Origin: Lachnospiraceae bacterium
GTDB taxonomy: Bacteria > Bacillota > Clostridia > Lachnospirales > Lachnospiraceae
Direction of reading: 5' to 3'
Length of the DNA: 64,000 nucleotides
NCBI GenBank assembly: GCA_024693135.1
Contig: JAILLN010000038.1
Coordinates: forward strand, 1 to 64,000
The notes beneath the pieces are model-generated. The model saw nothing but the letters and a program-made list of their open reading frames with translations, ran no database searches and was not told the origin of the DNA. Positions 8,670 to 46,528 of this stretch are shown here, piece after piece (the first letter of the stretch is position 1; the number at the start of each line of letters is the position of its first letter). The position numbers and the translations under genes were made by a program.

Positions 8670-10558
8670 TTCTTGAAAATCCCTGTGATGAAATGCCAGA
8701 GATCATACAGGATCCCGCGCTCAGAATCATAACCCGTCTTCGGCACTCCGTCCAAGGCTCTTCCGGAAGAGCTGAGGGAATTGCTGGACATTGAGGAAGA
8801 CCTGCTGCTGGAGCTGCTGCTGGAAGTGCTGCTGGAGGTCTTCGTATAAGCAATGCCAAAGGGCGAAAAATGAGTGGTAGAAAAACTCACATAGGGCCTG
8901 CTGCTGGTGGAGCCCGTAGAAGCGCTCAGCTCCTGGGTCCTTTCATCGTCATCGGGATGCAGGGTATAGACTTCTACCTTGCCCTGCCTCAGATCCCAGG
9001 AGGTCGGAAGGGGAAGCCCGATGGTACAGGTGCCGAAGCTGTCATACATCTGCTCCTCTGAACCGTTGGAGATGTCGTAAAGGGAAATGTCCGTATACAG
9101 GGTGTTGGTCGGGTTGGTGGATTTCACCTTCTTCTGTACCACCTCCACCTCGGAATCCGTGCTGTCCACGCTGCTGAAGACCAGCTTCCATCCGGTGAAA
9201 TTGATCCCGCTGACCTTGTAATAGGATGTGGAGCTTACCGGCTTGCTGCTCCAATCATCTACCTCGATCACATTGCTCTTCTGCGCCTTCACGGAGACCG
9301 TAAAGGTATCGGAGGAGGCGATATAGCTGTTGGCATATTGCAGCTTATAGTTGAAGCTGTAGGATTCCGGACTCGTGGTCACCTTCTTTCCCACAAATTT
9401 ATGGCCGCTGCCGCTCTGGGTAATCGTGATATAGCCGGTCGGATCCGATCCGGACGGAACCGTGAGCACGATGCTCATGCCGGTAGGCAGGGTACTCGGA
9501 ACGGTAGTCGGCGTGATGATCTGACCGGAACCTCCCTTATACAGGGTATAGGACGCAGCCGGTACAGAGATCGAGAAGGGATAGATCTTGATGCTGGCAG
9601 AGTCCCCTCCCCCCACGGGTGTCGCTGTGACCGTAACGGGTGTTTCACTTCCTGCGGCCGCAAGCAGGGTGCAGGCAGACAGGGTCTCGCTGGTCTTTGT
9701 CAGAACCCCATTGGGCGAAACGCTCCAGGTCACTCCGCTGCTCTGAGCCGCGCCGTTTAAGGAAACCGTGGCAGTCAGGGGCATGGACTGGCCCTTCCCC
9801 AGATAATAGGACTTCCCGTTTACGACGCTTCCGTTATACAGGATATATGCCTTCCGGGTAGGAGCCGGCGGCTTTGCCTTGACATTGATCTTTACCTGGG
9901 CTTTCAGGGAATGGATGGATGCGGTCACGGTCACATTGTTTGAAACCGATACCGCCTTGATGGTGACCGGTTTTCCTCCGTCCGTCACTGTGCCATGCGT
10001 CAGTGTAACTGCCGCAGAGGAAGGAGTCCACGTAATGTCATTCGCGCTTGCAGTGATGATCTTATTTGTGGATACCTCGATCACCTTGGCCGAGATCGTC
10101 CAAGTCTGGTCTTGTTCCAGGTCTTTCGAGGTACCATCTGTTATTCTTGCAGTATTTTCGCTCAATACCAGATTATAGCTTACGGTCCCGGCTCCGGTAT
10201 CCTCCAGATCGGCCGCATAGATCCTGGCGTCCGCAGCAGAGATCACCGGTCCACCCTTGGCTGTATTATCTGCCACAATCTCCGAAAGATCCTCTTCCGC
10301 TATGGGTACCACTTCCCCGCCGCCCTCTTCTCCTTCCGGAAGGATATCTGAGGGCTCCTCCTGGCCGGGCTCCCCTGCCTCCGGCTCCTCAATCGGGATC
10401 ATGACCGGCTCCGGTACCGGTTCTTCTTCTGTAGCCGGGGTTTCGTTTTCGGATACCCGCACTTCAGCCGCGATGGCCGCGCCCCCGATGGTGATCATCA
10501 CTATGATAAATACCAGAAATGCCGTGATATACAATCTGGATCTTTCTTTTAGTCCCAT
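8666..10558 (-). CDS. Ig-like repeat surface protein with VPKTG sorting signal
   Basis: This encodes 630 residues. GGAGG lies seven bases before the ATG. A signal peptide (about 1-31) is followed by an acidic Glu/Pro-rich linker. Several beta-rich Ig-like (Big_2-type) domains follow, each with a pattern such as LTHGTVTDGGKPVTIKAVSV or ITWTPSSAAV (about 100-430). A further beta domain precedes a Ser-rich stretch (about 570-600). The C-terminus holds VPKTG at about residues 605-609, a short and only moderately hydrophobic segment and a KK tail. This matches the (S/N/P)PxTG class used by clostridial sortase B, although the hydrophobic stretch is short. It is cotranscribed with the sortase from the promoter at 10660-10688. 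Its ligand is unknown. Confidence 0.85.
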   Translation of the reverse strand: MGLKERSRLYITAFLVFIIVMITIGGAAIAAEVRVSENETPATEEEPVPEPVMIPIEEPEAGEPGQEEPSDILPEGEEGGGEVVPIAEEDLSEIVADNTAKGGPVISAADARIYAADLEDTGAGTVSYNLVLSENTARITDGTSKDLEQDQTWTISAKVIEVSTNKIITASANDITWTPSSAAVTLTHGTVTDGGKPVTIKAVSVSNNVTVTASIHSLKAQVKINVKAKPPAPTRKAYILYNGSVVNGKSYYLGKGQSMPLTATVSLNGAAQSSGVTWSVSPNGVLTKTSETLSACTLLAAAGSETPVTVTATPVGGGDSASIKIYPFSISVPAASYTLYKGGSGQIITPTTVPSTLPTGMSIVLTVPSGSDPTGYITITQSGSGHKFVGKKVTTSPESYSFNYKLQYANSYIASSDTFTVSVKAQKSNVIEVDDWSSKPVSSTSYYKVSGINFTGWKLVFSSVDSTDSEVEVVQKKVKSTNPTNTLYTDISLYDISNGSEEQMYDSFGTCTIGLPLPTSWDLRQGKVEVYTLHPDDDERTQELSASTGSTSSRPYVSFSTTHFSPFGIAYTKTSSSTSSSSSSSRSSSMSSNSLSSSGRALDGVPKTGYDSERGILYDLWHFITGIFKK

Positions 10559-14113: not shown

Positions 14114-16084
14114 TCAGCCCCTTCTTTTGAAGGTGAAGGCAAATAGGATCCCAAAAATGAGGGCAGCCAGGGCAATACCCAGGTTCTTATATACTTCCGG
14201 GCCAAGCTCCATGAGAGAGGTTCCCGGAAATCCCGCCGGTGAAGCGTCTGCGGAATCAATATTCCCGGGATCATCCGGCCGCATGCCGCCTCCGAAGCCT
14301 CCGCCTTCCGGCATCCCATTTCCGGATACCCCGGGCTTCATGCCTCCTCCAAAACCAGAATGTCTTCTTCCCGTCCCGTTTCCGGACACTCCGGGCTTCA
14401 TGCCGCCTCCGAAGCCTTCTTCTCCGGGGTTTTCCGGCCGCATGCCGCCTCCGAAGCCGCCGCCTTCCGGCATCCCGTTTCCGGACACTCCGGGTTTCAT
14501 CCCGCCTCCGAAGCCTTCTTCTCCGGGGTTTCCCGGCCGCATTCCGCCCATAAATCCCCCTTCTTCCGGCATCCCGTTTCCGGATACTCCGGGCTGCATG
14601 CCACGGAAGCCTCCGTTTCCGCCCATACCCTCCGGCCCCATTCCATGGCCGAAGCCGGAGGAGGTCCCGGCCGATACCGCGATCCCGTCAAAAACAATCT
14701 TTTCTTCCACGTCCCCTGTCTTCAGGATATAGGTATTTCCCTGAATGAAGGAAGGACTGCTGAGATCTACCGAATTGAAACTGCAGGGCACCTCATAGGA
14801 TAAGATCACATTACCGTCCTCATCCTCTACGGTAAGAAACTCCCCTTCCGGAACCGTTTCCTCCAGATTGACCAGGGCCGCACATTGGGTGGACTCCTCC
14901 GAAAACCCTTCCGCCATGGAGGCGCTTCCGCAGGCGATGATCTCTCCTCCGGTAACGACCAGCTTTCCTCCGCTTTCGCTGGCATAATCGATGGCGCAAT
15001 TCCCGCCGCTCCCGGTCATGCTGACGCGGATGACTCCGCCGCTGATATAGATGTTCCCATTGGAATCCAGTCCGTCGGCATCCCGGGCTGTCGAATTAAC
15101 GATGGTAAGGTTTCCTCCGCTGATGCTGATATAGGTCTCCCCGTCCTCTTCTGCTTCCGGCTCTGCGGTCTCCTCCTTCCTGTCCTGGCCGAAGCCGAAG
15201 CCAAAACCGCCGGCACTGCCTCCATTGGCGTTGAAGCCGTCATCAGAAGGATATACCGTCACATCCCCATCCAGCATGGAAATGGCAGGAGCCTCGAAGC
15301 CCTCATAGCATTCCTCCATGCGGATCACGCCTCCCAGAACCTGGATGGCTTCATCACTGTGTACCGCATCGTCCCCGGCCTTGATCGTAAGGCTTGCTCC
15401 GGTGAAATTAAACTCATCATTCACATGGATCCCATCTGCTTCGGAAGTGATCTCCAGCTCTCCTCCGGTGATATGGAGGGAATCGTTGGCATCGATGCCA
15501 TGCTTATAATTTCCTTCGATCTTCAAGGCTCCGGATCCGTTTATGGTCAGGTCGTCGTGGGAAAAAACCGTCCCTCCCGCTCCGTCAGACTGGGCTTCCT
15601 CCGAAAATTCCTCCCCTGAGGAAAGGATATTTTCCGTTCCCTCCACCAAGGTAATAAATACCTTGTCTGCCTGGCTGACCTTAATGGCCGCATCGTCCTC
15701 ACAGCGGATATCCACCCCGTTCAGGACAAGCCAGACCTTGGAGGAGGAATAGGCATCCACGATGATGCTGCCGTCGGTAAGCTCCCCGGAAAGCACATAT
15801 CTGCCCCCGCCGGAGATGACCAGGTCTCCATCCAGGAAATAAGCCCCGTTCCCCTTCACCCTGCCTCCGGTTCCATTCAAAGCGATGGATACGCCTGAGC
15901 CGGTATCCTCACTTGCATTCAAGTCATTGGAGGTGAAATACTCCGTTCCTTCATAATATTCCGCATCCTCATCGGAACTAACCGTGATGCCGAGCTTCCT
16001 CCCCTGGATAAAGGCCAGGGTAAGAAGAACGGCGATCAGGATCCCGGCGATGCAGATCTTGTCCATTATCTTATTTGATGACAT
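14114..16084 (-). CDS. Cthe_2159-type carbohydrate-binding beta-helix protein
   Basis: This encodes 656 residues. An N-terminal membrane anchor or signal (about 11-27) is followed by a long region of short beta repeats (about 55-440). Typical turns include FLDGDLVISGGGRYVLSG, HDDLTINGSGALKIEG, GIHVNDEFNF and DGLDSNGNIYISGGVIRV. This is the right-handed beta-helix pattern of the Cthe_2159 family, which binds acidic polysaccharide such as polygalacturonate. Residues about 490-625 are a Gly/Met/Pro array of GGGMKPGVSGNGMPEGGGF-like repeats. A final membrane segment (about 635-652) and an RRG tail follow. One repeat reads TGRRHSGF, which looks like a compensated frameshift. The genes for DUF4956 and VTC proteins follow upstream in the same direction, a recurrent grouping. 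Confidence 0.82.
   Translation of the reverse strand: MSSNKIMDKICIAGILIAVLLTLAFIQGRKLGITVSSDEDAEYYEGTEYFTSNDLNASEDTGSGVSIALNGTGGRVKGNGAYFLDGDLVISGGGRYVLSGELTDGSIIVDAYSSSKVWLVLNGVDIRCEDDAAIKVSQADKVFITLVEGTENILSSGEEFSEEAQSDGAGGTVFSHDDLTINGSGALKIEGNYKHGIDANDSLHITGGELEITSEADGIHVNDEFNFTGASLTIKAGDDAVHSDEAIQVLGGVIRMEECYEGFEAPAISMLDGDVTVYPSDDGFNANGGSAGGFGFGFGQDRKEETAEPEAEEDGETYISISGGNLTIVNSTARDADGLDSNGNIYISGGVIRVSMTGSGGNCAIDYASESGGKLVVTGGEIIACGSASMAEGFSEESTQCAALVNLEETVPEGEFLTVEDEDGNVILSYEVPCSFNSVDLSSPSFIQGNTYILKTGDVEEKIVFDGIAVSAGTSSGFGHGMGPEGMGGNGGFRGMQPGVSGNGMPEEGGFMGGMRPGNPGEEGFGGGMKPGVSGNGMPEGGGFGGGMRPENPGEEGFGGGMKPGVSGNGTGRRHSGFGGGMKPGVSGNGMPEGGGFGGGMRPDDPGNIDSADASPAGFPGTSLMELGPEVYKNLGIALAALIFGILFAFTFKRRG
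14270..14640. repeat. Coding repeats in the beta-helix protein gene
   Basis: Several imperfect copies of a unit near 60-110 bases encode Gly/Met/Pro-rich blocks. Recurring plus-strand words include CCGTTTCCGGACACTCCGGG and CATGCCGCCTCCGAAGCC. Copy number is likely to vary. Confidence 0.7.
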
Positions 16085-35625: not shown

Positions 35626-35990
35626 TTTCCCTTCTGATCTGCCTGAATCCTAAGTCCTACTTTTGTCTTCCTCCGAATTGCTGCGTGTCCGCTTTGGGTT
35701 CGCCGGAAAAAGGATATCTGCCGGCGCTCGCATAGAAATACCGCCAAGGGCCTTGGTGTTTCCTAAGGAGCCTCTTACCGCGAACACGCGGAGATTGCCG
35801 CCTGCGAAGACTTGCAAGATCAGCCGTTATGCGAGACAACATGCTTTCCGCCCACTCGCATGGCTGAGATTGCATAGTCGAAGCCAGCGGGAAGCTCCGC
35901 ATTAAGTGAGCGGTGAGGCGACGTGGAAATGCAAGGCCCGCCGGCGGCGCTTCTTTGCCAATGCCTTCTGGCGGCTCCGGTATGGGCGCC
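35626..35990. other. Gene-free interval filled by repeat copy A and its flanks
   Basis: No supported gene lies in these 365 bases. The interval holds the structured element at 35751-35946. At 35701-35739 there is a second module containing GGAAAAAGGATATCTGCC, which also occurs twice near 42.15-42.37 kb. A 122-codon minus-strand open frame here reads through the repeat and is not called. Confidence 0.7.
35751..35946. repeat. Structured inverted-repeat element, copy A
   Basis: This 196-base element has near-matching terminal inverted repeats (CCTTGGTGTTTCC at one end, GGAAATGCAAGG at the other). Inside is a long hairpin at 35809-35879: GACT-TGCAA-GA-TCAGCC-ATGCGAG pairs with CTCGCAT-GGCTGA-GA-TTGCA-AGTC around a 19-base loop. 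A small hairpin CCGCG/CGCGG is at about 35779-35792 and a GCGG/CCGC hairpin at about 35887-35900. The whole element recurs in reverse orientation at 41708-41894. Confidence 0.82.
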
Positions 35991-36917
35991 TTAATCAGAC
36001 CGGCAGATCTCCTCCATAAAGGCAAGGATCTCTTCTTCCCCGGAGAAATCCGCCCGGTTGATCTCTATCGCTTCCGCCGTATGCTTAAACCAGGTGATCT
36101 GCCGCTTGGCAAAATGCCTGGTTTCAAGCCGGATCCTCTCTTCCGCCTCTTCCAGGGTGCATTCCCCGGCAAGATACTCTGCCATCTGACGGTACCCCAG
36201 AGAGCGCATGGATAGGGCTGATGCCGGTACCCCGGAGGAAAGAAGCCTTTTCACCTCTTCCTCAAGTCCTGCCTCAAGCATGCATCGCACCCTCTCGTTG
36301 ATCCTTTCGTAGAGCAGCTGCCTCGGCATATTGATCCAAAAGTAAGCCGCATCATAGGCCGGCCGCTTCTCCTTCTCCTGCCGGTTTTTATCCGAAAACA
36401 AAAGACCGGTGAGGGCATGATATTCTAATGCCCTGATGATCCTTTTCCGGTTTCCGTGATAAAGGGACGCAGACTCCGGGTCGATCAGGAAAAGCCGCTC
36501 TTCCATCGCTTTTGTGCCAAGCTTCTCTGCTTCTTCCTCCAAAGCCTTCCGGACCTCCGGATCCGTTTCGCCCTCGTTGAAGGAAATATCGTAAAGCACC
36601 GACTGGATATAAAAGCCGGTACCCCCGGTAAGCACCGGCAGATGCCCCCGGTCCCGGATCCTTCCTATGGCCTCCTTAGCGAGGGATTGAAAAAGGGATA
36701 CGTTGAACTCTTCCGTGGGCTCCAGGATGCTTAAGAGATGATGGGGGACTCCCTCCATCTCCTGCCTGGTAATCTTGGCCGAGCCGATGTCCATGCCCCG
36801 ATAAACCTGCACGGAATCCGCAGAGACCACCTCTCCCCCGATCCGCTTGCATAAGCCCACCGCCAATGCGCTCTTTCCCACGGCCGTAGGTCCGGCTATG
36901 ATCACAAGATCCTTCAT
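35991..36917 (-). CDS. miaA: tRNA dimethylallyltransferase
   Basis: This encodes 308 residues. It has IIAGPTAVGKSALAVGL (P-loop), GEVVSADSVQVYRGMDIGSA, LTGGTGFYIQSVLYD and the late FAKRQITWFKH. It transfers a dimethylallyl group to A37 of tRNAs reading UNN codons. MiaB, encoded at 46684, then methylthiolates the same base. It lies four bases from mutL in the common mutS-mutL-miaA order. Confidence 0.96.
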   Translation of the reverse strand: MKDLVIIAGPTAVGKSALAVGLCKRIGGEVVSADSVQVYRGMDIGSAKITRQEMEGVPHHLLSILEPTEEFNVSLFQSLAKEAIGRIRDRGHLPVLTGGTGFYIQSVLYDISFNEGETDPEVRKALEEEAEKLGTKAMEERLFLIDPESASLYHGNRKRIIRALEYHALTGLLFSDKNRQEKEKRPAYDAAYFWINMPRQLLYERINERVRCMLEAGLEEEVKRLLSSGVPASALSMRSLGYRQMAEYLAGECTLEEAEERIRLETRHFAKRQITWFKHTAEAIEINRADFSGEEEILAFMEEICRSD

Positions 36918-36920
36918 CTC

Positions 36921-38945
36921 CTATAATACCCGCTTGAATTTCTTTTCCAGATCCGTCTTGGTGAATTCAATGATGGTAGGACGGCCATGGGGACAATGAT
37001 AGGGATTTTCCAGGGAAAGAAGCCGGGACAAAAGCTCCTCCGCCTCCGCATAGGAAAGCTCCGTATTACCCTTCACGGCAGCCTTGCAGGACATCTGGGC
37101 CAGCCGGTCATGGATGATCCCCACATCCTCAAGCCCTGCTTCCCCGGAAAGCTCATCCAGCATGCTGAGAAACACATCCTGCTGCCGAAGGCTCATGAAG
37201 CCGGAGGGTACCGCCCTCAAGGCATAATCGTTTCCTTCAAAATGTTCGATCTCAAAGCCCATGGAAGCAAAGGCATCCCGGAAGGAAAGAAGGGTCTGCT
37301 CCTGCCGGCCATTTACCGTAAACACAAGGGGCGGGCTGACATATTGGGATACGACCTGCCTGTTCCGGTATTTCTCCACGAACTCCTCATACAGCACCTT
37401 TTCGTGGGCCGCATGCTGATCCACAAGAAGCATCCTTTCCTTGTACTCTATGATCCAATAGGTCTTGAACACCTGTCCCACAATCCTGAAATATGGGCGG
37501 TTTCCGGGGCTGATGATCTTTTCTTCAAAAAGGTCCATCTGCTTTGGAGCCGGCATCTCCGGATCAATTCCGGCAAGACCGCCTGCTTCCCTAAGCCCTC
37601 CATCCACTTCTTCCCTGGGCGCTGCTCCTTCCGCGGTATAGGCCCTGTCTTCCGCTCTTACCGCTCCTTCATCGGCATAGGCCCTGTCTTCCGCTCTCGC
37701 CGCTCCTTCCGCGGCATAGACCCTGTCTTCCGCTCTCGCCGCTTCCCCGTAGGCCGGTGCAGCCTCCCTTACCCCGGCTCCGGCAATCCGTGCGTCCGTC
37801 CTTTCTTCCCGGTAAAGCGCTTCCTCACGGATGATCCTGGCCTGCTCTGCGGCACTTCTTAAATTCATGCGGTTCACCTCAAAGGGCTCCGGGGTATCCT
37901 TCGGCACTTCAAGGGGAAGCTCTTCTTTTGGATTCAATCCGCCATCCTGAATGAGCTCGGCCTGCTTTAAGACAGAACCCACATTCGTCCGGATGAATTC
38001 AAAAAGAGCGGCACTTTCCGCAAACTTCATTTCCGTCTTCCTCGGATGGACATTCACGTCGGCCATGCCCGGATCAAGGTTCAGCACAAGCACGGAAAAG
38101 GGAAACTTATGCTGCATGAGATAAGGCTTATAAGCTTCCTCCAATGCCTTCTGCAGGATCTTATCCTTGATATAATGTCCGTTCACAAAGAAAATCTCAT
38201 ATTCCCGGCTGGATCTGGCGACAACAGGCCGGCAGGCGTAGATCTCCATGGACATCCCAAGGTCGGAAGCCTTCCCCGTAAGGATGGCATCGGCGATGTC
38301 CCTTCCATAGACTTTATAGATGTTTTCCCTCCGGTTGCCGCTTCCGGTGGTCACGAATTTCGTCTGCCCGTTCAGCACATACTTAACGGCGATCTCCGGA
38401 TAGCCGATGGCCAGCATCTGCACGAATTCCGTGATATAGCCTCCCTCGGTAACAGCGGACTTCAGGAATTTACGCCTTACCGGGGTATGGAAAAAGAGAT
38501 TCCTTACGATAAAGGTTGTGCCCTCCGGAGCACCCACCTCCTCCAGGGAAACCTCCTGTCCTCCGTCGATCCGGTAACGGATGCCGGTCAAAGCCTCCGG
38601 GGTCTTGGTGATGACCTCTACCTGGCATACCGCCGCGATGCTGGAAAGAGCCTCTCCCCGAAAGCCCAGGCTCCTTACGGAAAAAAGATCCTCCGCCTTC
38701 GTGATCTTGCTTGTGGCGTGAGGAAGAAAAGCATCCCTTACCTGGTCGGCCGCGATGCCGCCCCCGTTATCCGTGACCCTCACCAGGTCGATCCCTCCGC
38801 CCTTGATCTCGATGGTAATGGCCGTGCTTCCCGCATCAATGGCATTTTCGGAAAGCTCCTTCACTACGGAAAGCGGTCTTTCTACCACCTCGCCCGCAGC
38901 GATCTTATTAATCGTATCCTCGCTAAGAACCTGTATCCTCTGCAT
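36921..38945 (-). CDS. mutL: DNA mismatch repair protein MutL
   Basis: This encodes 674 residues. The N-terminal GHKL ATPase has KIAAGEVVERPLSVVKELSE with NAIDAG, VTDNGGGI and SLGFRGEALSSIAAV. The C-terminal domain carries DQHAAHEKVLYEEF, SCKAAVKG and CPHGRPTI, the endonuclease motifs of MutL from bacteria without MutH. The linker (about 395-440) holds three in-frame 13-residue repeats AARAEDRxYAxEG encoded by 39-base tandem repeats. It nicks the new strand after MutS recognises a mismatch. It is next to mutS with a two-base gap. Confidence 0.96.
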   Translation of the reverse strand: MQRIQVLSEDTINKIAAGEVVERPLSVVKELSENAIDAGSTAITIEIKGGGIDLVRVTDNGGGIAADQVRDAFLPHATSKITKAEDLFSVRSLGFRGEALSSIAAVCQVEVITKTPEALTGIRYRIDGGQEVSLEEVGAPEGTTFIVRNLFFHTPVRRKFLKSAVTEGGYITEFVQMLAIGYPEIAVKYVLNGQTKFVTTGSGNRRENIYKVYGRDIADAILTGKASDLGMSMEIYACRPVVARSSREYEIFFVNGHYIKDKILQKALEEAYKPYLMQHKFPFSVLVLNLDPGMADVNVHPRKTEMKFAESAALFEFIRTNVGSVLKQAELIQDGGLNPKEELPLEVPKDTPEPFEVNRMNLRSAAEQARIIREEALYREERTDARIAGAGVREAAPAYGEAARAEDRVYAAEGAARAEDRAYADEGAVRAEDRAYTAEGAAPREEVDGGLREAGGLAGIDPEMPAPKQMDLFEEKIISPGNRPYFRIVGQVFKTYWIIEYKERMLLVDQHAAHEKVLYEEFVEKYRNRQVVSQYVSPPLVFTVNGRQEQTLLSFRDAFASMGFEIEHFEGNDYALRAVPSGFMSLRQQDVFLSMLDELSGEAGLEDVGIIHDRLAQMSCKAAVKGNTELSYAEAEELLSRLLSLENPYHCPHGRPTIIEFTKTDLEKKFKRVL
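37624..37740. repeat. Three 39 bp in-frame repeats in the mutL linker
   Basis: Units 37624-37662, 37663-37701 and 37702-37740 share GCTCCTTC, CGGCATAGGCCCTGTCTTCC and GCTCTCGCC with few changes. They encode AARAEDR-type blocks between the ATPase and dimerisation domains of MutL. Confidence 0.85.
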
Positions 38946-38947
38946 GC

Positions 38948-41617
38948 TTATTTATCCTTCCCATACCGGTTTGAAGCCAGGCTCTGGAGTCTGGCCAGTG
39001 CATTCAGCGCATCAATGGGGGTCATGTGCGGCAGGTCCAGGTTCTTCAATTCCGTGATAATGTCGTCATCCTTCATGGTATCAAAAAGAGACATCTGGTA
39101 AAGCTCCACCTCATCAGCCCTCTTCTGCCTCTGCGAAGCCTTTCCGGAGACCGCCATTTCCCTCACCCGCACAGCGATGTCATTATCGGAAAGCTCCTCC
39201 ACGATCACCTTGGCCCGCTCAATGACGCTCTCCGGCACTCCTGCCAGCTTCGCCACCTGGATCCCGTAGGACCGGTCTGCTCCGCCCTCGACGATCTTTC
39301 TCAAAAAAACCACATCATCCCCATGCTCCTTCACCGCAAAGCAATAATTATTGACACAGGGGATCTTTCCCTGAAGCTCCGTCAGCTCATGGTAATGCGT
39401 GGCGAAAAGCGTTTTGGCCCCGCAGAGCTTCGGATTGCTGATATGCTCTACCACAGCCCATGCGATGGCCAGCCCGTCATAGGTGGAGGTTCCCCTGCCG
39501 ATCTCATCCAGGATCAAAAGACTGTTGGCAGTGGCATTCCGGAGGATATTCGCCACCTCCGTCATCTCTACCATAAAGGTGGACTGGCCGGATGCAAGAT
39601 CATCGCTGGCTCCCACCCGGGTGAAGATCCGGTCCGTGATGCAGATATCCGCTTCCTTCGCCGGTACGAAGGAACCGATGGCGGACATCAGCACAATGAG
39701 GGCCGTCTGCCGCATATAAGTGGACTTTCCCGCCATATTCGGGCCCGTGATGATGGATATCCTTTTCTGATCCTGATCCAGATAGACATCATTCGATATG
39801 AAGGAGCCGTCCCGGATCATCTTTTCCACCACCGGATGCCTGCCGTCCTTGATGTTGATCACGCCTTCCTCATTGATCCTCGGCCTCACATAGCCGGAAT
39901 GTTCCGCCGCATAGGACAGGGAAGCCAAGGCATCCAAGACTGCCACCGCGGATGCGGTTCTGGTAAGCCTTTCCATCTGCTCCGCCGCAGTTTTTCTCAC
40001 CTCGCAGAAGAGCTGGTATTCCAGGGAGAAAAGCCGCTCCTCGGAATTCAGGATCTCATCCTCCATCTTCTTCAGCTCATCCGTGGTGAAGCGTTCCCCT
40101 GTGGTCAGAGTCTGCTTGCGGATAAAATCCTCCGGCACCATTTTCAGAAAGGAATTTGAGACCTCAAAATAATAGCCGAAGACCTTGTTGAATTTGATCT
40201 TCAGGTTCTTGATCCCGGTCCTCTCTCTGGTATCTGCTTCAAGCTTTACCAGCCATTGCTTGCCTTCTGTCTTGATCCTCCTGAGGCGGTCTACTTCTTC
40301 GTTATACCCGTCCTTCACCACGCCGCCGTCCCTGGCTGAGACCGGAGGTTCCTCTTCGATGCAGCGGTCAATGAGCCCGATCAGATCCGTCATCTCATCG
40401 ATCTCCTCCCTCTTCCTTTGAAGAAGGGCGCTCTGAAAGCCGCTGGAGGTCATGCGGATGGGAGAAAGCTGGGACAGGGAATTCTTCAGGGCAATGAGAT
40501 CCCTCGGGCCTGCCGTGCCAAAGCACACCCGGCACATGAGGCGTTCGATATCATAGATCCCGCTTAGATATTCCCGGATCTCGTCCCGGTCCATGAGCTT
40601 CTCGGAAAGCTCTCCTACCGCATCAAGCCTCTCCTCGATGGCCTCTTTCTGGGTAAGGGGCTGCTCGATGAAATGCCTGAGCATTCTGGAGCCCATGGCC
40701 GTTTTTGCCTTATCCAGGATCCATAGCAGAGTGCCCTTCTTGGACTTCTCCCGCATGCTCTCGGTAAGCTCCAGATTGCGCCTGGTGGAGGAATCAATGA
40801 TCATGGACTGGGCGGTTTGGTAAGGCGTGATCCTCGTGATATTTCCCAGGTCGTTTTTCTGTGTCTCAAGGAGATAACCAAGAAGAGCCCCCGCAGACAA
40901 AGCACCGGCCTCCATTCCTCCGAGTCCCAATCCTTCCAGGCTCATGACCTTAAAATGGGAAAGAAGCTTTTCGCTGCACTCTCCCGGATCAAAATGCCGG
41001 CTGGGGAGAGCGCTTACCATGACATGCAGAGTATTTCTCATGTCCTCCATGCTGATCCCGCTTAATGGGAAGGCTTCGTTCACCAGGATCTCCTTCGGGG
41101 AATATTTGGCGATCTCATCCATGAGCTTTGCATTCTCGGAAAGCTCCGTCGCAAGAAAATCCCCGGTGGTCACATCCGCTATGGAAACCCCGAAGAGATC
41201 TGCTTCGTAAAAGATGCACATGATATAGCTGTTGGCATCTTCTTCCATGGCCGAGACATTGGTATTGGTCCCCGGGGTCACCACTCGGATCACATCCCGC
41301 TTGACGATGCCCTTTGCCAGCTTCGGATCCTCCAGCTGCTCGCAGACTGCCACCTTCAGCCCAGTGGATACCAGCTTATTAATGTAGGTCTCCGCCGCAT
41401 GAAAGGGGACGCCGCACATGGGCGCACGCTCCGGCAGGCCGCAGCTTTTCCCCGTGAGGGTCAGCTGCAGTACCCGGGATACGGTCTTCGCATCCTCGAA
41501 GAACATCTCGTAGAAATCCCCCAGCCGATAAAAAAGGATGCAGTCGGGGTACTTCTCCTTGGTCTGGAGATAGTGCTGCATCATCGGAGAAACTTTATTC
41601 GGATCTACTTCAGTCAT
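38948..41617 (-). CDS. mutS: DNA mismatch repair protein MutS
   Basis: This encodes 889 residues. The mismatch-binding start has YLQTKEKYPDCILFYRLGDF with YEMFFEDA, including the conserved Phe-x-Glu equivalent. Walker A is GPNMAGKSTYMRQTALIV, Walker B LLILDEIGRGTSTYDG, and a late ATHYHELTEL is present. The length is normal. The start codon follows GGTGG closely. Upstream is the large repeat region at 41618-42571, and the expected neighbour miaB lies beyond two chemoreceptor genes. Confidence 0.97.
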   Translation of the reverse strand: MTEVDPNKVSPMMQHYLQTKEKYPDCILFYRLGDFYEMFFEDAKTVSRVLQLTLTGKSCGLPERAPMCGVPFHAAETYINKLVSTGLKVAVCEQLEDPKLAKGIVKRDVIRVVTPGTNTNVSAMEEDANSYIMCIFYEADLFGVSIADVTTGDFLATELSENAKLMDEIAKYSPKEILVNEAFPLSGISMEDMRNTLHVMVSALPSRHFDPGECSEKLLSHFKVMSLEGLGLGGMEAGALSAGALLGYLLETQKNDLGNITRITPYQTAQSMIIDSSTRRNLELTESMREKSKKGTLLWILDKAKTAMGSRMLRHFIEQPLTQKEAIEERLDAVGELSEKLMDRDEIREYLSGIYDIERLMCRVCFGTAGPRDLIALKNSLSQLSPIRMTSSGFQSALLQRKREEIDEMTDLIGLIDRCIEEEPPVSARDGGVVKDGYNEEVDRLRRIKTEGKQWLVKLEADTRERTGIKNLKIKFNKVFGYYFEVSNSFLKMVPEDFIRKQTLTTGERFTTDELKKMEDEILNSEERLFSLEYQLFCEVRKTAAEQMERLTRTASAVAVLDALASLSYAAEHSGYVRPRINEEGVINIKDGRHPVVEKMIRDGSFISNDVYLDQDQKRISIITGPNMAGKSTYMRQTALIVLMSAIGSFVPAKEADICITDRIFTRVGASDDLASGQSTFMVEMTEVANILRNATANSLLILDEIGRGTSTYDGLAIAWAVVEHISNPKLCGAKTLFATHYHELTELQGKIPCVNNYCFAVKEHGDDVVFLRKIVEGGADRSYGIQVAKLAGVPESVIERAKVIVEELSDNDIAVRVREMAVSGKASQRQKRADEVELYQMSLFDTMKDDDIITELKNLDLPHMTPIDALNALARLQSLASNRYGKDK

Positions 41618-41707
41618 AATCCACCTTATCTAAATAATATTTACTAACAGACTAAGCTGCGCCGTTTTCAAGTCTTATGCTTCGATTAAAGCTGCGCCGC
41701 CTGCGGA

Positions 41708-41894
41708 CCTTGCATTTCCACACCGCCTCACCGCTCACTTAATGCGGAGCTTCCCGCCTACTGCGACTATGCAATCTCGGCTTGGCGAGCCAACTTAAAA
41801 GCGTGTTGTCTCGCCAGACAGCCGATCTTGCAAGTCTCCGTCCGGCGGCAATCTCCGCGTGTTCGCGGTAAGAGGCGCCTTAGGAAACGCAAGG
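41708..41894. repeat. Structured inverted-repeat element, copy B
   Basis: This 187-base element is copy A in reverse orientation. The ends CCTTGCATTTCC and GGAAACGCAAGG match as inverted repeats in 11 of 12 bases. The central hairpin (41765-41836) pairs GACT, TGCAA, TCGGCT and TGGCGAG with CTCGCCA, AGCCGA, TTGCA and AGTC. Relative to copy A, four pairs are changed on both sides so that pairing is kept. Confidence 0.82.
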
Positions 41895-42054: not shown

Positions 42055-42071
42055 GGAACCGTCCCCTGACC
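42055..42071. repeat. REP-like sequence in the repeat region
   Basis: GGAACCGTCCCCTGACC resembles the cores of 3245-3268 and 12536-12558 (AGAACCGTCCCCTTGTC type), but it does not lie at a gene end. Confidence 0.4.
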
Positions 42072-42145
42072 AACGCGGATCGGGGAGCCGGCTCCGTACC
42101 CGTCTTCACCTCAGCCAGAACAACGTAATACAGCGTGGAGGGGGA

Positions 42146-42371
42146 GCCGGGAAAAATGATATCTGCAGAGGCTCTAATGCCGGCGTTTCTTAGCGAGCCC
42201 GAGACGCATAAATTTCGCGAGTGCGAAGGCTGGGCTTGCGCCTCATAACCTTCTGTCATGCAATGAAACCGGATCGGCGCAAGACCAGAACAGCGCCGAG
42301 CGAAATTTTGTCATGCGGCGACGGGCGAGCTTAGAAACGACCGAGCGCCTGGCAGATATCATTTTTTCGGC
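42146..42371. repeat. Large imperfect palindrome
   Basis: Left arm from 42146 (GCCGGGAAAAATGATATCTG, then CGTTTCTTAGCGAGCCC and AAATTTCGCGAG) and right arm to 42371 (CGAGCGAAATTTTG, GGGCGAGCTTAGAAACG, then GCAGATATCATTTTTTCGGC) are diverged inverted copies of about 70 bases. The GATATCTGC module also occurs next to copy A at 35701-35739. Confidence 0.65.
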
Positions 42372-42461
42372 GACCCGGGTTGGTACATAACACCACAGCC
42401 ATGCGACATCCCATGCAGCGTGGAGGGCGACCCGGGTCCGTACATAACACCATAGCCACGC
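42369..42461. repeat. Two direct repeats of about 36 bp
   Basis: GGCGACCCGGGT, GTACATAACACCA and AGCCA(C/T)GC recur at 42369-42404 and 42426-42461 with few changes. A GCGTGGAGGG motif before the second copy is also found at 42131-42143. Confidence 0.65.
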
Positions 42462-42571: not shown

Positions 42572-44290
42572 TTATTCCATCTTGAACTTCGCCACGATCT
42601 CTTTCATCTCCTCTGCAAAGTGCACCGTTTCCTCTGCGATGACATCCGTCTCCGAGGCAATGGTCACGATATCCGTGGTCTTGTTGGCGATATCGGTCAC
42701 TCCCTTCGCGGATTCCCCGATGGTGGCATTGATGCCCTCGATGGAGGTAGATACCACATCGATGGATTCGTTGAGGTTGGTCACGGATTCGTTGATGCTG
42801 TCCATGCTGACCTCGAAGGAGCTGGCATCGCTGGCATACTGCTCTACCACGGAATCAAACTCTGCATAATCGGCCATGACGTTCTGGTCTACAAATTCCA
42901 GCGCCCTGGTCAGGCAGCCGGACATGTTCTGCACGGCTGTATTGACCTCCGCCACGATCTCATTGATGCCGGTAACGGTATCGGAGGACTGTCCGGCCAG
43001 ATGTCCGATCTCTTCTGCGACCACGGCAAAGCCTCTCCCGGCTTCTCCGGCTCTGGCCGCCTCGATGGAAGCATTGAGGGCAAGGAGGTTCGTCTGGCTT
43101 GCGATGCTGCGGATCTGCTCTGTCAGCTCGTTGATCTTTTCCACGGCCTTGCTCTGCTCGATGGCCTCATCCGACTGGGTCTTTACGTCGGAGAAGATCT
43201 GGGTGGTCTTCTGTGCGGAAGCATTGACCTGCAGCTTGATCTCGGAAGCCTTCTTGCGGATGTCGGAAGCGGACTTTGTGCCGTCCTGGGACAGGCTGTG
43301 GATCTGGGATGCATGATCCAGCATTCCCTGCACATTGCTGTTGATGGTCTCGGTAGTGGCTGCGGTTTCCTGCATTCCGGCCGCCAGCTCCTGGGAGGTA
43401 GCCGACTCATCCGAGGAGTCGTCATTCATGGTAAGGGTCATTTCCTTCAGCCTCTGCGCCTTTGCGGAAAGATTGTCGGCCACATCATCCAGCTCATGGA
43501 CCGTGCTTCTGAGCACTGCCCTCATTTCACCGATGGCCCGGGCGATATGTCCCAGCTCATCCTTTCTTGCCACCAGGGCGTCTGCCTCGGGATTATGGGT
43601 GAAGTCCAGCCTTCCTGTGCGCTCCACCATGCCCACCAGCGGGCGGATGGGACGCAGCAGCATTTTGGTATAAAGCAGGATCAGAAGGGCAAGGATGACA
43701 AAGGCGATGCCCAGGGTGAAGATGCTGCTGAGGATGGTCTTTTTGATATGGGATACCACATCGTCCTCATCCGCGGTGATGATCAGAATATTATGGGAGC
43801 CCGGCATGATATAGGAAGCCGCATATTTGTTCTTCCCCTTGAACTTGTAGGTGATGATATCCGGATCCGGAGCCACGCCGCTCTTTAGCTGTTCCACGAT
43901 CCCCTTCACAGCGGCATTTTCCACCGGCTGTCCGATCTTTTCCGGCGTGGGATGATAGAGCATGATGCCGTTTTCATCGACCAGGTATGCATAGCTGGAG
44001 GTGAAATCAGACACCTGCACATTGCCGATCATTCCATCCAGGGAAGAAGGATCCGCCATGATCTGGATGGCCTTTGCATTCAACAGCTGTCCGGTCTGGA
44101 TAGTAAGGGAAAGCATGTCATTCTGTACCGTCTCAATGTATTTCTTTCGAAACTGCGTGATGGTGACCGTCTCCGCCAATACAGCCGTGATCAGCATCGC
44201 CACCACCGCGGCGATCATGATGGGTGCGGCCAGTGTCCGAAAGCCCTTCAGCTTTTTCCCATCTTTTTTGTTTTCGTTTTTCCTTTCCAT
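42572..44290 (-). CDS. Methyl-accepting chemotaxis protein
   Basis: This encodes 572 residues from the ATG at 44290 (GGGGGG seven bases upstream). It has an N-terminal membrane segment, a single-Cache extracytoplasmic domain ([43 protein letters not shown]), a second membrane segment, a HAMP region and a signalling domain with the hairpin tip [36 protein letters not shown]. The receptor tip is well conserved, so it should couple to CheA/CheW. The ligand is unknown; Cache domains of this type often bind small organic acids or amino acids. No che genes lie in the window. Confidence 0.93.
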
Positions 44291-44419
44291 AGCTTTTCCC
44301 CCCATTTTGTTTATTTCAGACAAAACCCCGTACCCCAGGCATGCAGCTCCCACAGGATCTCCCTTCAGGCTGAAGCACGTGCCGGTTTTGTTCTGTGCAT
44401 ATTGTTCCGGGCAACCGTT

Positions 44420-46528
44420 TTAGGATTCCGATTCCTGTCCGTTATATTTGAACTTCTTCGTGATCCTCACCAGCTCCTCCACGGCTTCCCTGGCATCCTG
44501 CAGCTTCTGATAGCCGTCCTCATTGGCCGACCGCATCTCATCCGAGCGGGAAGCAATGTCATTGACGCTGTCCGCTGACCTCACCGTCATGCCATTGATG
44601 TCGTCTGCCGCGGTAAGGATTTCCTCAATATAATGCTCCAGGGAATCGGTGCCTGTCCGCACTCTGGACATGATGTCGATGAAGTAGTCCGCATCCGCCA
44701 GGTAGCGCTCCCCGGAATCCTGGAACATCCGGTAATCCGTAAGTACGGTCTCCTCCAGGAAATCCATGAGCTGGGTGATGCAGTCGTTCATATTCTGGAC
44801 GGCATTCCCCACTTCCTCCACGATGCCGCTGATATTGTCCACGGTCTTCATGGTCTGGTTCGCTAAGGAGCCGATCTCGTCTGCCACCACGGCAAATCCT
44901 CTCCCTGCTTCCCCGGCTCTGGCGGCTTCGATGGATGCATTTAAGGCCAGAAGGTTCGTCTGTCCGGAAATGCTCTTGATGTCGTCGGTGAGCTCGTGGA
45001 TCCGCTCCACGGCCTTGCTCTGCTCGATGGCTTCCGCGCTCTTCACCTTCATCACATCATACATCTTATGGGTCTTGTCGCTGGAAGTCCCGCTTCTCTT
45101 CTGCATATCCCCGGCGCGTTCCTGGATCCGCTTGGATTCTTCCTCGCTCTGGACTGCCAGGTCGTTGATCTCCTGCATCTGGTTTCGCACATCGCCCACA
45201 TGGCGTACGATCTGGGAGGTATTCTCGGTAGCCTCTGCCATGCCCTGCGCCAGGTTTCTCGTGGCATCCGTATTGTCGTCGGTACGGGCATTATTTTCCT
45301 TCATGATGCTGTCCAGGTTATCGATGCTGCCGTTGATGGCCCGCTCCACGTCATTGAAGGAATCCACCATCCCCCGGAAGGCCGTCCTCATGCCATGCAC
45401 TCCCGCAGCCATCTGTCCGATCTCATCCTTCTGGGACATGAGCTTTCCGCCGCTCTTAGAGGAAGTCAGGTCCAGCTTCGCGGTCTGGTCGATAATGTCC
45501 GTCAGGGAATGGATCGGCTTGGCCAGGCCGTTGCCGACAAAGAATCCAACCACCGCACAGACGAAAAGGGCCAGGATCACTGCACCCAGGATGGTATACA
45601 GCAGGGTATAGGCCTCCGCATAGATCTCCGACTTCGGAGCCGTCAGGAAAAGCTTCATGGAATTTTTCGTCGGCTGATATACCATGAGACGGTCTACGCC
45701 CTTATAGGAATAAGCATAGGTCTTGCCGCGGTTTTCCTCGCTGTCCGCAAAGGCCGAGACTCCCGCAAGGCTTGGATCCAGGGACGCAAGGGCTTTTCCG
45801 TTTTCTTCGCCCTGATGATATACGATGTCCCCGGCCGCATTCGTCAGGAAGCCGTAGCCGGAATCAAAAAGGCTGACGGAATCCACCATAGAGGTCAGCA
45901 GGTCAAAGGAGATGTCCATGCCCACGATGCCGATGGAGGTGCCATCCTGGGAATAGAGGGGCACCACATAGGAGATCATGTATACATTGATATTGCTGTT
46001 GAGATAGGGATCCATCCAGATGGGCTCTCCATGCTGGACCGGGATATAATACCAGCCCACATGCTCAAGATCCGACGGTTCATACATGGAAAAATCCGTA
46101 GGCACCACCTCGGAAAAAGGATCCGAAAGGCTGTCCCTGGTGAGGAAGCATCCCGAGGTAGGATTGGTATACTCCGGATTATAGCGGATATAGGCGGTTA
46201 TTGCTCCGTCCGTATGCTCAGCAAACCGGTGGACCTGCTCCAGCACCTGGCTTGTATAGGCATCCGCATAATTGACATCGGAAAAGAAACGGCGCTCGCT
46301 GAGTCCGCTCAGGACGATATCCGACAGGATGTTCACGGACTGCTCCACCCTGGAGATCGTGGAGTCCAGCTCGTTGGCTACCGCGGCGGTCTTATTCACC
46401 ATATTTTCGGTGGAATCCTCCTCCGCGATCCGCATGGTGCTCCGGATAGACAGCACGCTGATGATCCCGGCGGTCAGAAGCGAGCAAAGCAATATGCCGA
46501 GTATGATTTTTAAACGTATGGATTTCAT
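44420..46528 (-). CDS. Methyl-accepting chemotaxis protein with dCache domain
   Basis: This encodes 702 residues, with AGGGGG before the ATG. The membrane segment at about 7-27 is followed by a large double-Cache domain (about 35-310, with YIRYNPEYTNPTSGCFLTRD, WYYIPVQHGEPIWMDPYLNS and IGIVGMDISFDLLTSMVD). A second membrane segment, a HAMP region and a signalling domain with [35 protein letters not shown] follow. It is a paralogue of the receptor encoded downstream but has its own promoter at 46571-46599. The ligand is unknown. Confidence 0.93.
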   Translation of the reverse strand: MKSIRLKIILGILLCSLLTAGIISVLSIRSTMRIAEEDSTENMVNKTAAVANELDSTISRVEQSVNILSDIVLSGLSERRFFSDVNYADAYTSQVLEQVHRFAEHTDGAITAYIRYNPEYTNPTSGCFLTRDSLSDPFSEVVPTDFSMYEPSDLEHVGWYYIPVQHGEPIWMDPYLNSNINVYMISYVVPLYSQDGTSIGIVGMDISFDLLTSMVDSVSLFDSGYGFLTNAAGDIVYHQGEENGKALASLDPSLAGVSAFADSEENRGKTYAYSYKGVDRLMVYQPTKNSMKLFLTAPKSEIYAEAYTLLYTILGAVILALFVCAVVGFFVGNGLAKPIHSLTDIIDQTAKLDLTSSKSGGKLMSQKDEIGQMAAGVHGMRTAFRGMVDSFNDVERAINGSIDNLDSIMKENNARTDDNTDATRNLAQGMAEATENTSQIVRHVGDVRNQMQEINDLAVQSEEESKRIQERAGDMQKRSGTSSDKTHKMYDVMKVKSAEAIEQSKAVERIHELTDDIKSISGQTNLLALNASIEAARAGEAGRGFAVVADEIGSLANQTMKTVDNISGIVEEVGNAVQNMNDCITQLMDFLEETVLTDYRMFQDSGERYLADADYFIDIMSRVRTGTDSLEHYIEEILTAADDINGMTVRSADSVNDIASRSDEMRSANEDGYQKLQDAREAVEELVRITKKFKYNGQESES

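Follow-up and report, generated by a model that had tools for sequence, protein, structure and literature searches.

A dispersed family of giant hairpins with covarying arms in a Lachnospiraceae bacterium that resembles mobile DNA

The described systems that come closest to the elements investigated in this study include REPINs, in which compensatory changes are called common and of which the GI REPIN measures about 71 bp from end to end (PMC3116915), and the bcr repeats of the Bacillus cereus group, which are 100–400 bp long, intergenic, group-specific and MITE-like, some of them with a conserved structure (PMC6542083, PMC3446304). A MITE with an internal minisatellite has been described in Porphyromonas gingivalis (PMC4596501), CGTC-tagged REPs of 20–40 bp are presented in the account concerned as having no dedicated transposase (PMC3733652), and stem-loop families have been surveyed in 40 genomes (PMC2267715). 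In RNA stems, matched changes can also be the product of arm-to-arm copying during DNA replication (PMC8794818). Compensatory change is usually read as the sign of a functional RNA. Here it is found in a dispersed DNA repeat, within as well as across species, and our search of the open-licence literature returned no account of this hairpin family.

The two copies from which the analysis started are located in a window of 64,000 nucleotides, the whole stretch of DNA that was analysed, from contig JAILLN010000038.1. A preliminary description had recognised two elements of about 190 bp in opposite orientation, both of which are real, but the repeated core is slightly longer, with approximate ends at 35741 and 35956 for copy A (plus strand), located by repeat search and folding in the junction between miaA and megL, and at 41688 and 41905 for copy B (minus strand), located upstream of mutS. 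Each core contains an inner domain that is kept across species, at 35791–35897 on the plus strand in copy A (GAGAT .. CGAAGACTT .. TAGTCGAAG .. AGCTC) and at 41747–41855 on the minus strand in copy B. The apical stems of copy A (35820–35867, plus strand) are formed by TCAGCC (35820–35825) pairing with GGCTGA (35862–35867) and ATGCGAG (35829–35835) pairing with CTCGCAT (35855–35861); their counterparts in copy B, on the minus strand, are TCGGCT/AGCCGA and TGGCGAG/CTCGCCA, all of which can be read from the sequence as had been reported. Remnants of a further module, termed hairpin-1, adjoin copy A on the plus strand at 35691–35755 (matches 35691–35730 and 35727–35755), and a module match at 42130–42376 on the minus strand places hairpin-1 in the composite adjoining copy B. 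The REP-like core string GAACCGTCCCC at 42056–42066 (plus strand) is part of the linker that joins copy B to hairpin-1 and not an outer end, and by itself it does not occur above chance within the 64-kb window. The view of A and B as paired elements has to be abandoned, as they are merely two among at least 25 complete copies in the genome, and their position around miaA-mutL-mutS is a coincidence, because other copies adjoin many other genes, as judged from crude ORF calls. The window holds further repeats, namely a 39-bp direct repeat within mutL (37609–37754, minus strand), which results in a repeated stretch in the MutL linker, direct repeats of about 49 bp in five copies (790–1071) and of about 99 bp in four copies (14215–14670), and a 164-bp stretch, 82% identical, common to the adjacent ORFs 42572–44353 and 44420–46528, which we take to be chemotaxis receptors.

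The core is an imperfect palindrome of about 200 nt, for which the predicted fold of the single strand is one long irregular hairpin extending from end to end. RNA folding of copy A gave a z-score of -6.6 on either strand, with none of 200 shuffles equally stable, and DNA folding gave z-scores of -5.3 for copy A and -8.1 for copy B. By RNA energies, the plus strand is more stable than the minus strand in all 25 complete copies of the own genome (mean -107.6 vs -97.8). The letters of the outer stem are nearly invariant among these copies. The closing GACT/AGTC, proposed to be kept together with a GA/GA internal loop, is present in 25 of 25 complete copies, but the loop in only 22.

In the own assembly (G000; 3.19 Mb in 67 contigs, 87.8% complete), at least 54 matches were found, 41 of which touch the core body and 13 of which are short matches to a tail repeat of about 34 bp. 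The former comprise at least 25 complete copies, at least 15 pieces at contig ends and, beside L006, one half copy, all of these counts being lower bounds with 40 of 55 first-look candidates scored. Fifteen core pieces end at most 5 bp from the end of a contig (e.g. L024, L027–L039 and L041), accounting for at least eight loci, so that breaks of the assembly within hairpins lead to an underestimation of copy number and completeness. The copies appear mosaic and occur in both orientations relative to neighbouring genes (crude ORF calls). Searches by blastn with the sequence gave no match in the 47 other genomes of the genus or in 396 other genomes of the family sample, distant-mode blastn with a 616-bp composite stretch gave none among phages and plasmids, and viral contigs did not contain an exact 21-base pattern; two Acidobacteria MAG contigs matched in an exact-pattern contig scan were taken as chance.

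According to the preliminary description, every change between A and B is matched on the opposite strand. This holds for the two apical stems, where all four differing pairs are matched (alignment pairs 83/128, 86/125, 90/124 and 91/123), but not for the whole stem, where 14 of 65 pairs differ, five of them on both sides and nine on one side only. In an alignment of the 25 complete copies (A1; 22 of them constitute A2), 98.7% of cells pair, compared with 95.8 after shuffling, and two-sided changes are found at 12 of 65 pairs (5.1 shuffled) and in 49 cells (15.1 shuffled), with a covariation score of 0.104 vs 0.052. Sliding the 3' partner by one to three columns reduces the two-sided changes to zero or one pair, and further standard pair types show no excess (21 vs 20.9 shuffled). 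The shuffle controls ignore the relatedness of the copies, which the slide controls keep. In pairwise comparisons, differences in the apical part (columns 81–96) are two-sided in 730 and one-sided in 41 cases, and differences in the outer stem (columns 10–78) are two-sided in 92 and one-sided in 617. Over core and hairpin-1 together, 12 of 26 changes common to at least two copies are matched, as are 8 of 40 private changes (p 0.031), a contrast that is significant for hairpin-1 alone (p 0.030) but not for the core alone (p 0.49). This post hoc contrast lends modest support to the idea that the fold counts when a copy becomes a source of new ones and no longer once it is inserted.

Homologues in other species were located with two covariance models, the E-values of which are rough. 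The first (R1), built from 22 own copies, found one match outside the own genome when run over the genus, in G025 (E 7.5e-5). The G025 sequence in turn gave, by blastn, 12 matches in G025, nine of which were used with three short ones left out, and weak matches in G030 (one), G004 (two) and G001 (one). Since blastn of the G025 element against the own genome gave no match, homology between the two families is based on the covariance models and a common motif. All 13 foreign copies fold into giant hairpins and share, with small variations, the arrangement GAGAT .. GA(C/T)TT .. (A/T)(A/G)TC .. CTC. Applied to 12 foreign loci, R1 matched nine at E≤1, seven of them at E≤7e-5 and all nine on the homologous strand, and missed L163, L165, L168 and the second G004 copy; over 397 genomes of the family it missed G030. 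Its genus-wide run had overlooked the loci in G001, G004 and G030 that were later matched directly, and absence in R1 searches is therefore no proof. The second model (R2) was built from 12 foreign sequences and none from the own genome. In the 64-kb window it returned, up to E 10, exactly two matches, copy A (E 2.2e-7) and copy B (E 3.2e-5), both in the right orientation and covering the inner domains given above, and up to E 1 it found none in 50 other loci (136 kb). This recovery can be regarded as the strongest test of homology. The check suggested at the outset, a covariance model searched against related genomes, has, together with blastn, yielded homologues in G025, G004, G001 and G030.

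The covariation extends across these species. In an alignment of five genomes (A3; six of the 25 own copies and 13 foreign rows, 18 of the 19 rows distinct), two-sided changes are found at 15 of 25 pairs (10.3 shuffled) and in 82 cells (28.4 shuffled) with a covariation score of 0.476 (0.173 shuffled), and slid structures reach at most seven pairs and a score of at most 0.147. Within G025 alone (A4; eight of nine copies, L167 left out), they affect 20 of 66 pairs (9.6 shuffled) and 37 cells (12.7 shuffled). A further alignment (A5) contains 12 foreign rows, L172 being left out as identical in its letters to L171. The letters of internal loops are kept between species, including those of mismatched loops. 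The family was found in 5 of 48 genomes of the genus at the limited sensitivity of our searches and is old within the genus. The fold is constrained, because covariation is seen repeatedly, within the own family, within the separate family of G025 and across five genomes, all three with shuffle and slide controls, and also in the adjoining hairpin-1 module, there counted without such controls. This provides stronger support than two copies alone could give; the constraint on folding proposed from A and B is supported in this sense, but template switching may contribute to the pattern.

The units in G004, G001 and G030 are 205–207 bp long. By eye, the four copies, representing three independent sites, begin with TCAGGAA and end with TTCCGTCA, and they have TCA at both ends, which could be a target-site duplication or a target. 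In G004, a locus (L173, G004:C7:71000-83000) contains two inverted hairpin copies (2528–2732 and 8713–8918) around restriction-modification genes, encoding ResIII/T5orf172, an Eco57I-type methylase and a Type II methylase. G001 lacks this segment and the second copy. A reading of the pair as a gene cassette was rejected, because some 86 bp of the restriction gene persist next to the single copy in G001, a remnant that makes its state look like a deletion.

Further information comes from the site occupied by copy A. In the window, the gap between miaA and megL, which contains the copy, measures 365 bp. Eight relatives from the genus have a miaA match and megL is the next gene in seven of these loci, with gaps, computed from coordinates, of at most 32 bp in five (G032, G043, G047, G016 and G022, two of which overlap), 113 bp in G041 and 293 bp in G046. 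In relatives from outside the family, the gap amounts to about 290–440 bp in five of the six in which megL was found. The wider gaps, in G041, in G046 and outside the family, weigh against a reading as mobile DNA. The comparison is one between species and not with an empty site within one species, and no case of insertion polymorphism inside a species came to light.

In its own genome the core is embedded in a larger modular composite, which, as assigned by eye, consists of a left end, hairpin-1, a linker, the core, a variable number of repeats of about 34 bp and often a right end, AGACAAAAGAACCGTCCCC.TGTCT. Hairpin-1 is a second large palindrome, with 15 matches over 240 bp in the own genome, whose 15 copies show eight two-sided states on 7 of 67 pairs, for a structure predicted from the same alignment and counted without shuffles. 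A third large palindromic module takes its place in L010 (1120–1400) and L021. Allowing two mismatches, and with some loci cut by contig ends, the REP-like right end is found within 500 bp of the core in 13 of 25 copies and the left end within 900 bp in 7 of 25, where a uniform-base estimate predicts about 1.6 and 2.8 by chance, respectively. One unit (L061) has both ends, which pair in DNA folding, and no core. Over the own genome GAACCGTCCCC gives 20 matches, compared with one for the reversed control. In G025, a REP-like unit is found inside the fetched locus of one out of nine copies. The REP-like string GGGGACGGTTC occurs in 36 of 48 genomes of the genus, G045 having as many as 202 copies, with many close inverted doublets among the places listed.

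The ends of the composite look like REPs of the RAYT type. The corresponding transposase domain, Y1_Tnp (PF01797), was detected in 24 of 48 genomes of the genus and gave no match in the own genome at its completeness of 87.8%; our transposase search for the core covered PF01797 alone. In 6 of 12 fetched Y1_Tnp regions the longest ORF is RAYT-like and accompanied, within about 250 bp, by stem units around a GGGGACGGTTC-like string, on both sides of the gene in G003 (L113), G002 (L114), G016 (L116) and G007 (L121), where the stems are species-specific, and on one side in L120 and L122. L117, L118 and L119 have RAYT-like genes and no such unit, and in L115, L123 and L124 the longest ORF is another or a partial one, with units on either side of the Y1_Tnp match in L123, as judged from coordinates. 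We found no account of this RAYT-flanking, GGGGACGGTTC-like REP family in the open-licence literature. None of the fetched regions contains elements of the hairpin family, which together with the lack of a Y1_Tnp match in the own genome weakens the case for RAYT as the mobiliser of the core.

Our results have to be weighed against alternative origins of the covarying fold. The preliminary description had left the choice between a non-coding RNA and a transposable element, and mobile DNA fits better than the former, because copies are dispersed in genome-specific families and both orientations, the junction is near-empty in most relatives from the genus and one-sided changes show no strand bias. 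The last point derives from the expectation that selection on one RNA strand would allow one-sided changes giving GU to outlast those giving AC, and the similar counts, 10 to 12 for private changes in core and hairpin-1 and 14 to 12 in G025, speak against it. A multi-copy structured RNA, or the RNA portion of a larger element, under selection for its fold would account for helices that covary over five genomes and have internal loops with conserved letters, for the higher stability of the plus strand in every own copy and for R1 matches confined to the homologous strand. With one-sided changes unbiased, multiple copies in genome-specific families and both orientations relative to genes by crude calls, we nevertheless consider it quite improbable. 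No Rfam family is matched either, in agreement with the initial statement that the element is not a known RNA family: a search of the window with Rfam 15 at gathering thresholds gave no matches, and a relaxed search of four loci returned BjrC68 (a terminator-like site), Mico1 and PVT1_3, all away from the elements. It is similarly improbable that the matched pairs arose mainly by template switching of DNA polymerase in a quasi-palindrome, where one arm serves as template for the other in the absence of selection on the fold, a mechanism described for RNA stems (PMC8794818). The scarcity of one-sided states at apical pairs would be expected from such a process and arm copying may explain it; moreover, L019 and L021 carry the left arm GGCTTCGAC and, as its exact complement over nine letters, the right arm GTCGAAGCC; several of these letters differ from other copies, the remaining 23 lack this complementarity, and one arm looks to have been copied onto the other. 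Yet differences in the outer stem are mostly one-sided, and mismatched internal loops, which arm copying would erase, are kept across species. Selection on the fold and template switching may both be at work.

An interpretation of the elements as spacer parts of giant REPINs, in which the REP-like ends are the substrate of RAYT and the hairpins travel along as passengers, agrees with the presence of right and left ends near 13 and 7 of the 25 copies, the excess of GAACCGTCCCC over its reversed control, the pairing ends of L061, the RAYT-like genes accompanied by such units in half of the fetched regions, four of them on both sides, and the compensatory changes called common in REPINs (PMC3116915). 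It appears unlikely in light of the missing Y1_Tnp match in the own genome, a unit without core in L061 and a single G025 copy with a unit in its locus, and it accounts for the composite better than for the core. We instead favour, with a probability of roughly 0.6, that the elements belong to a non-autonomous, hairpin-dependent family of mobile DNA, similar to REPINs and MITEs, whose unit is the imperfect palindrome of about 200 bp. A more far-reaching reading, to which we give about a one-in-four chance, holds that a class of mobile elements old within the genus is defined by the giant structured hairpin itself, recognised by its GAA-type internal loop, T bulge, GAGAT/AGCTC and covarying helices, that the REP composites merely carry the hairpin here and that the enzyme, neither RAYT nor a classical transposase, acts on the folded single strand.

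For the favoured mobile family, we infer that the core moves, that it passes through a single-stranded step and that selection acts at propagation. The unit would fold into one long hairpin when its strand becomes single during replication or in a transposition intermediate, a state in which it may resemble integron attC sites, which act as folded single strands. A hypothetical enzyme supplied in trans would recognise the irregular stem and move or copy the unit to new intergenic sites, where copies still able to fold could act as sources of new copies. In consequence, changes that found a sub-family would be matched on the other arm and inserted copies would drift, with some matched changes perhaps made in one step by the copying of arm onto arm. 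In the own genome, the unit would be part of a composite of core, second large hairpin, linker and tandem repeats of about 34 bp, often near GGGGACGGTTC units. The family offers a natural test of the origin of matched changes, by selection on a folded transposition substrate or by arm-to-arm copying, it points to a putative enzyme able to handle a single-stranded hairpin of 200 nt, and it serves as a warning that covariation screens can label mobile DNA hairpins as RNAs.

The comparison with known systems underlines both kinship and distance. With REPINs and their RAYTs, the family shares its dispersed, palindromic and hairpin-forming nature, compensatory changes across the hairpin, which we found in the own family, in five genomes and in G025 and which are described for REPINs (PMC3116915), the REP-like units near many own copies and, within the genus, RAYT-like genes with the same unit core. 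It differs in the size of its core, about 200 nt compared with about 71 bp in the GI REPIN (PMC3116915), in the proximity of REPs to only part of the copies and in an own genome without a RAYT match. The bcr repeats are likewise intergenic, group-specific, MITE-like and in part structured, a resemblance of properties; their mobility is tied in the cited accounts to TTTAT motifs (PMC6542083, PMC3446304). MITEs share the non-autonomous character, the inverted repeats and, in the P. gingivalis example (PMC4596501), a tandem array inside the unit, but neither a parent transposon nor a target-site duplication is established for the hairpins. GTAG- and CGTC-tagged REPs are shorter, at 20–40 bp, and the five phyla listed for CGTC repeats in the cited text do not include Firmicutes, although CGTC REPs resemble the family in being described without a dedicated transposase (PMC3733652). 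The flank consensus GGGG[AT][CG]A[CG] reported for TIRYT, subclass 2.1 of TnpA-REP (PMC6006769), agrees with GGGGACGG at seven of eight positions. Collectively, the family behaves like non-autonomous mobile DNA akin to REPINs and MITEs, larger and more elaborate than REPINs, and the search for Y1_Tnp tied no transposase to it.
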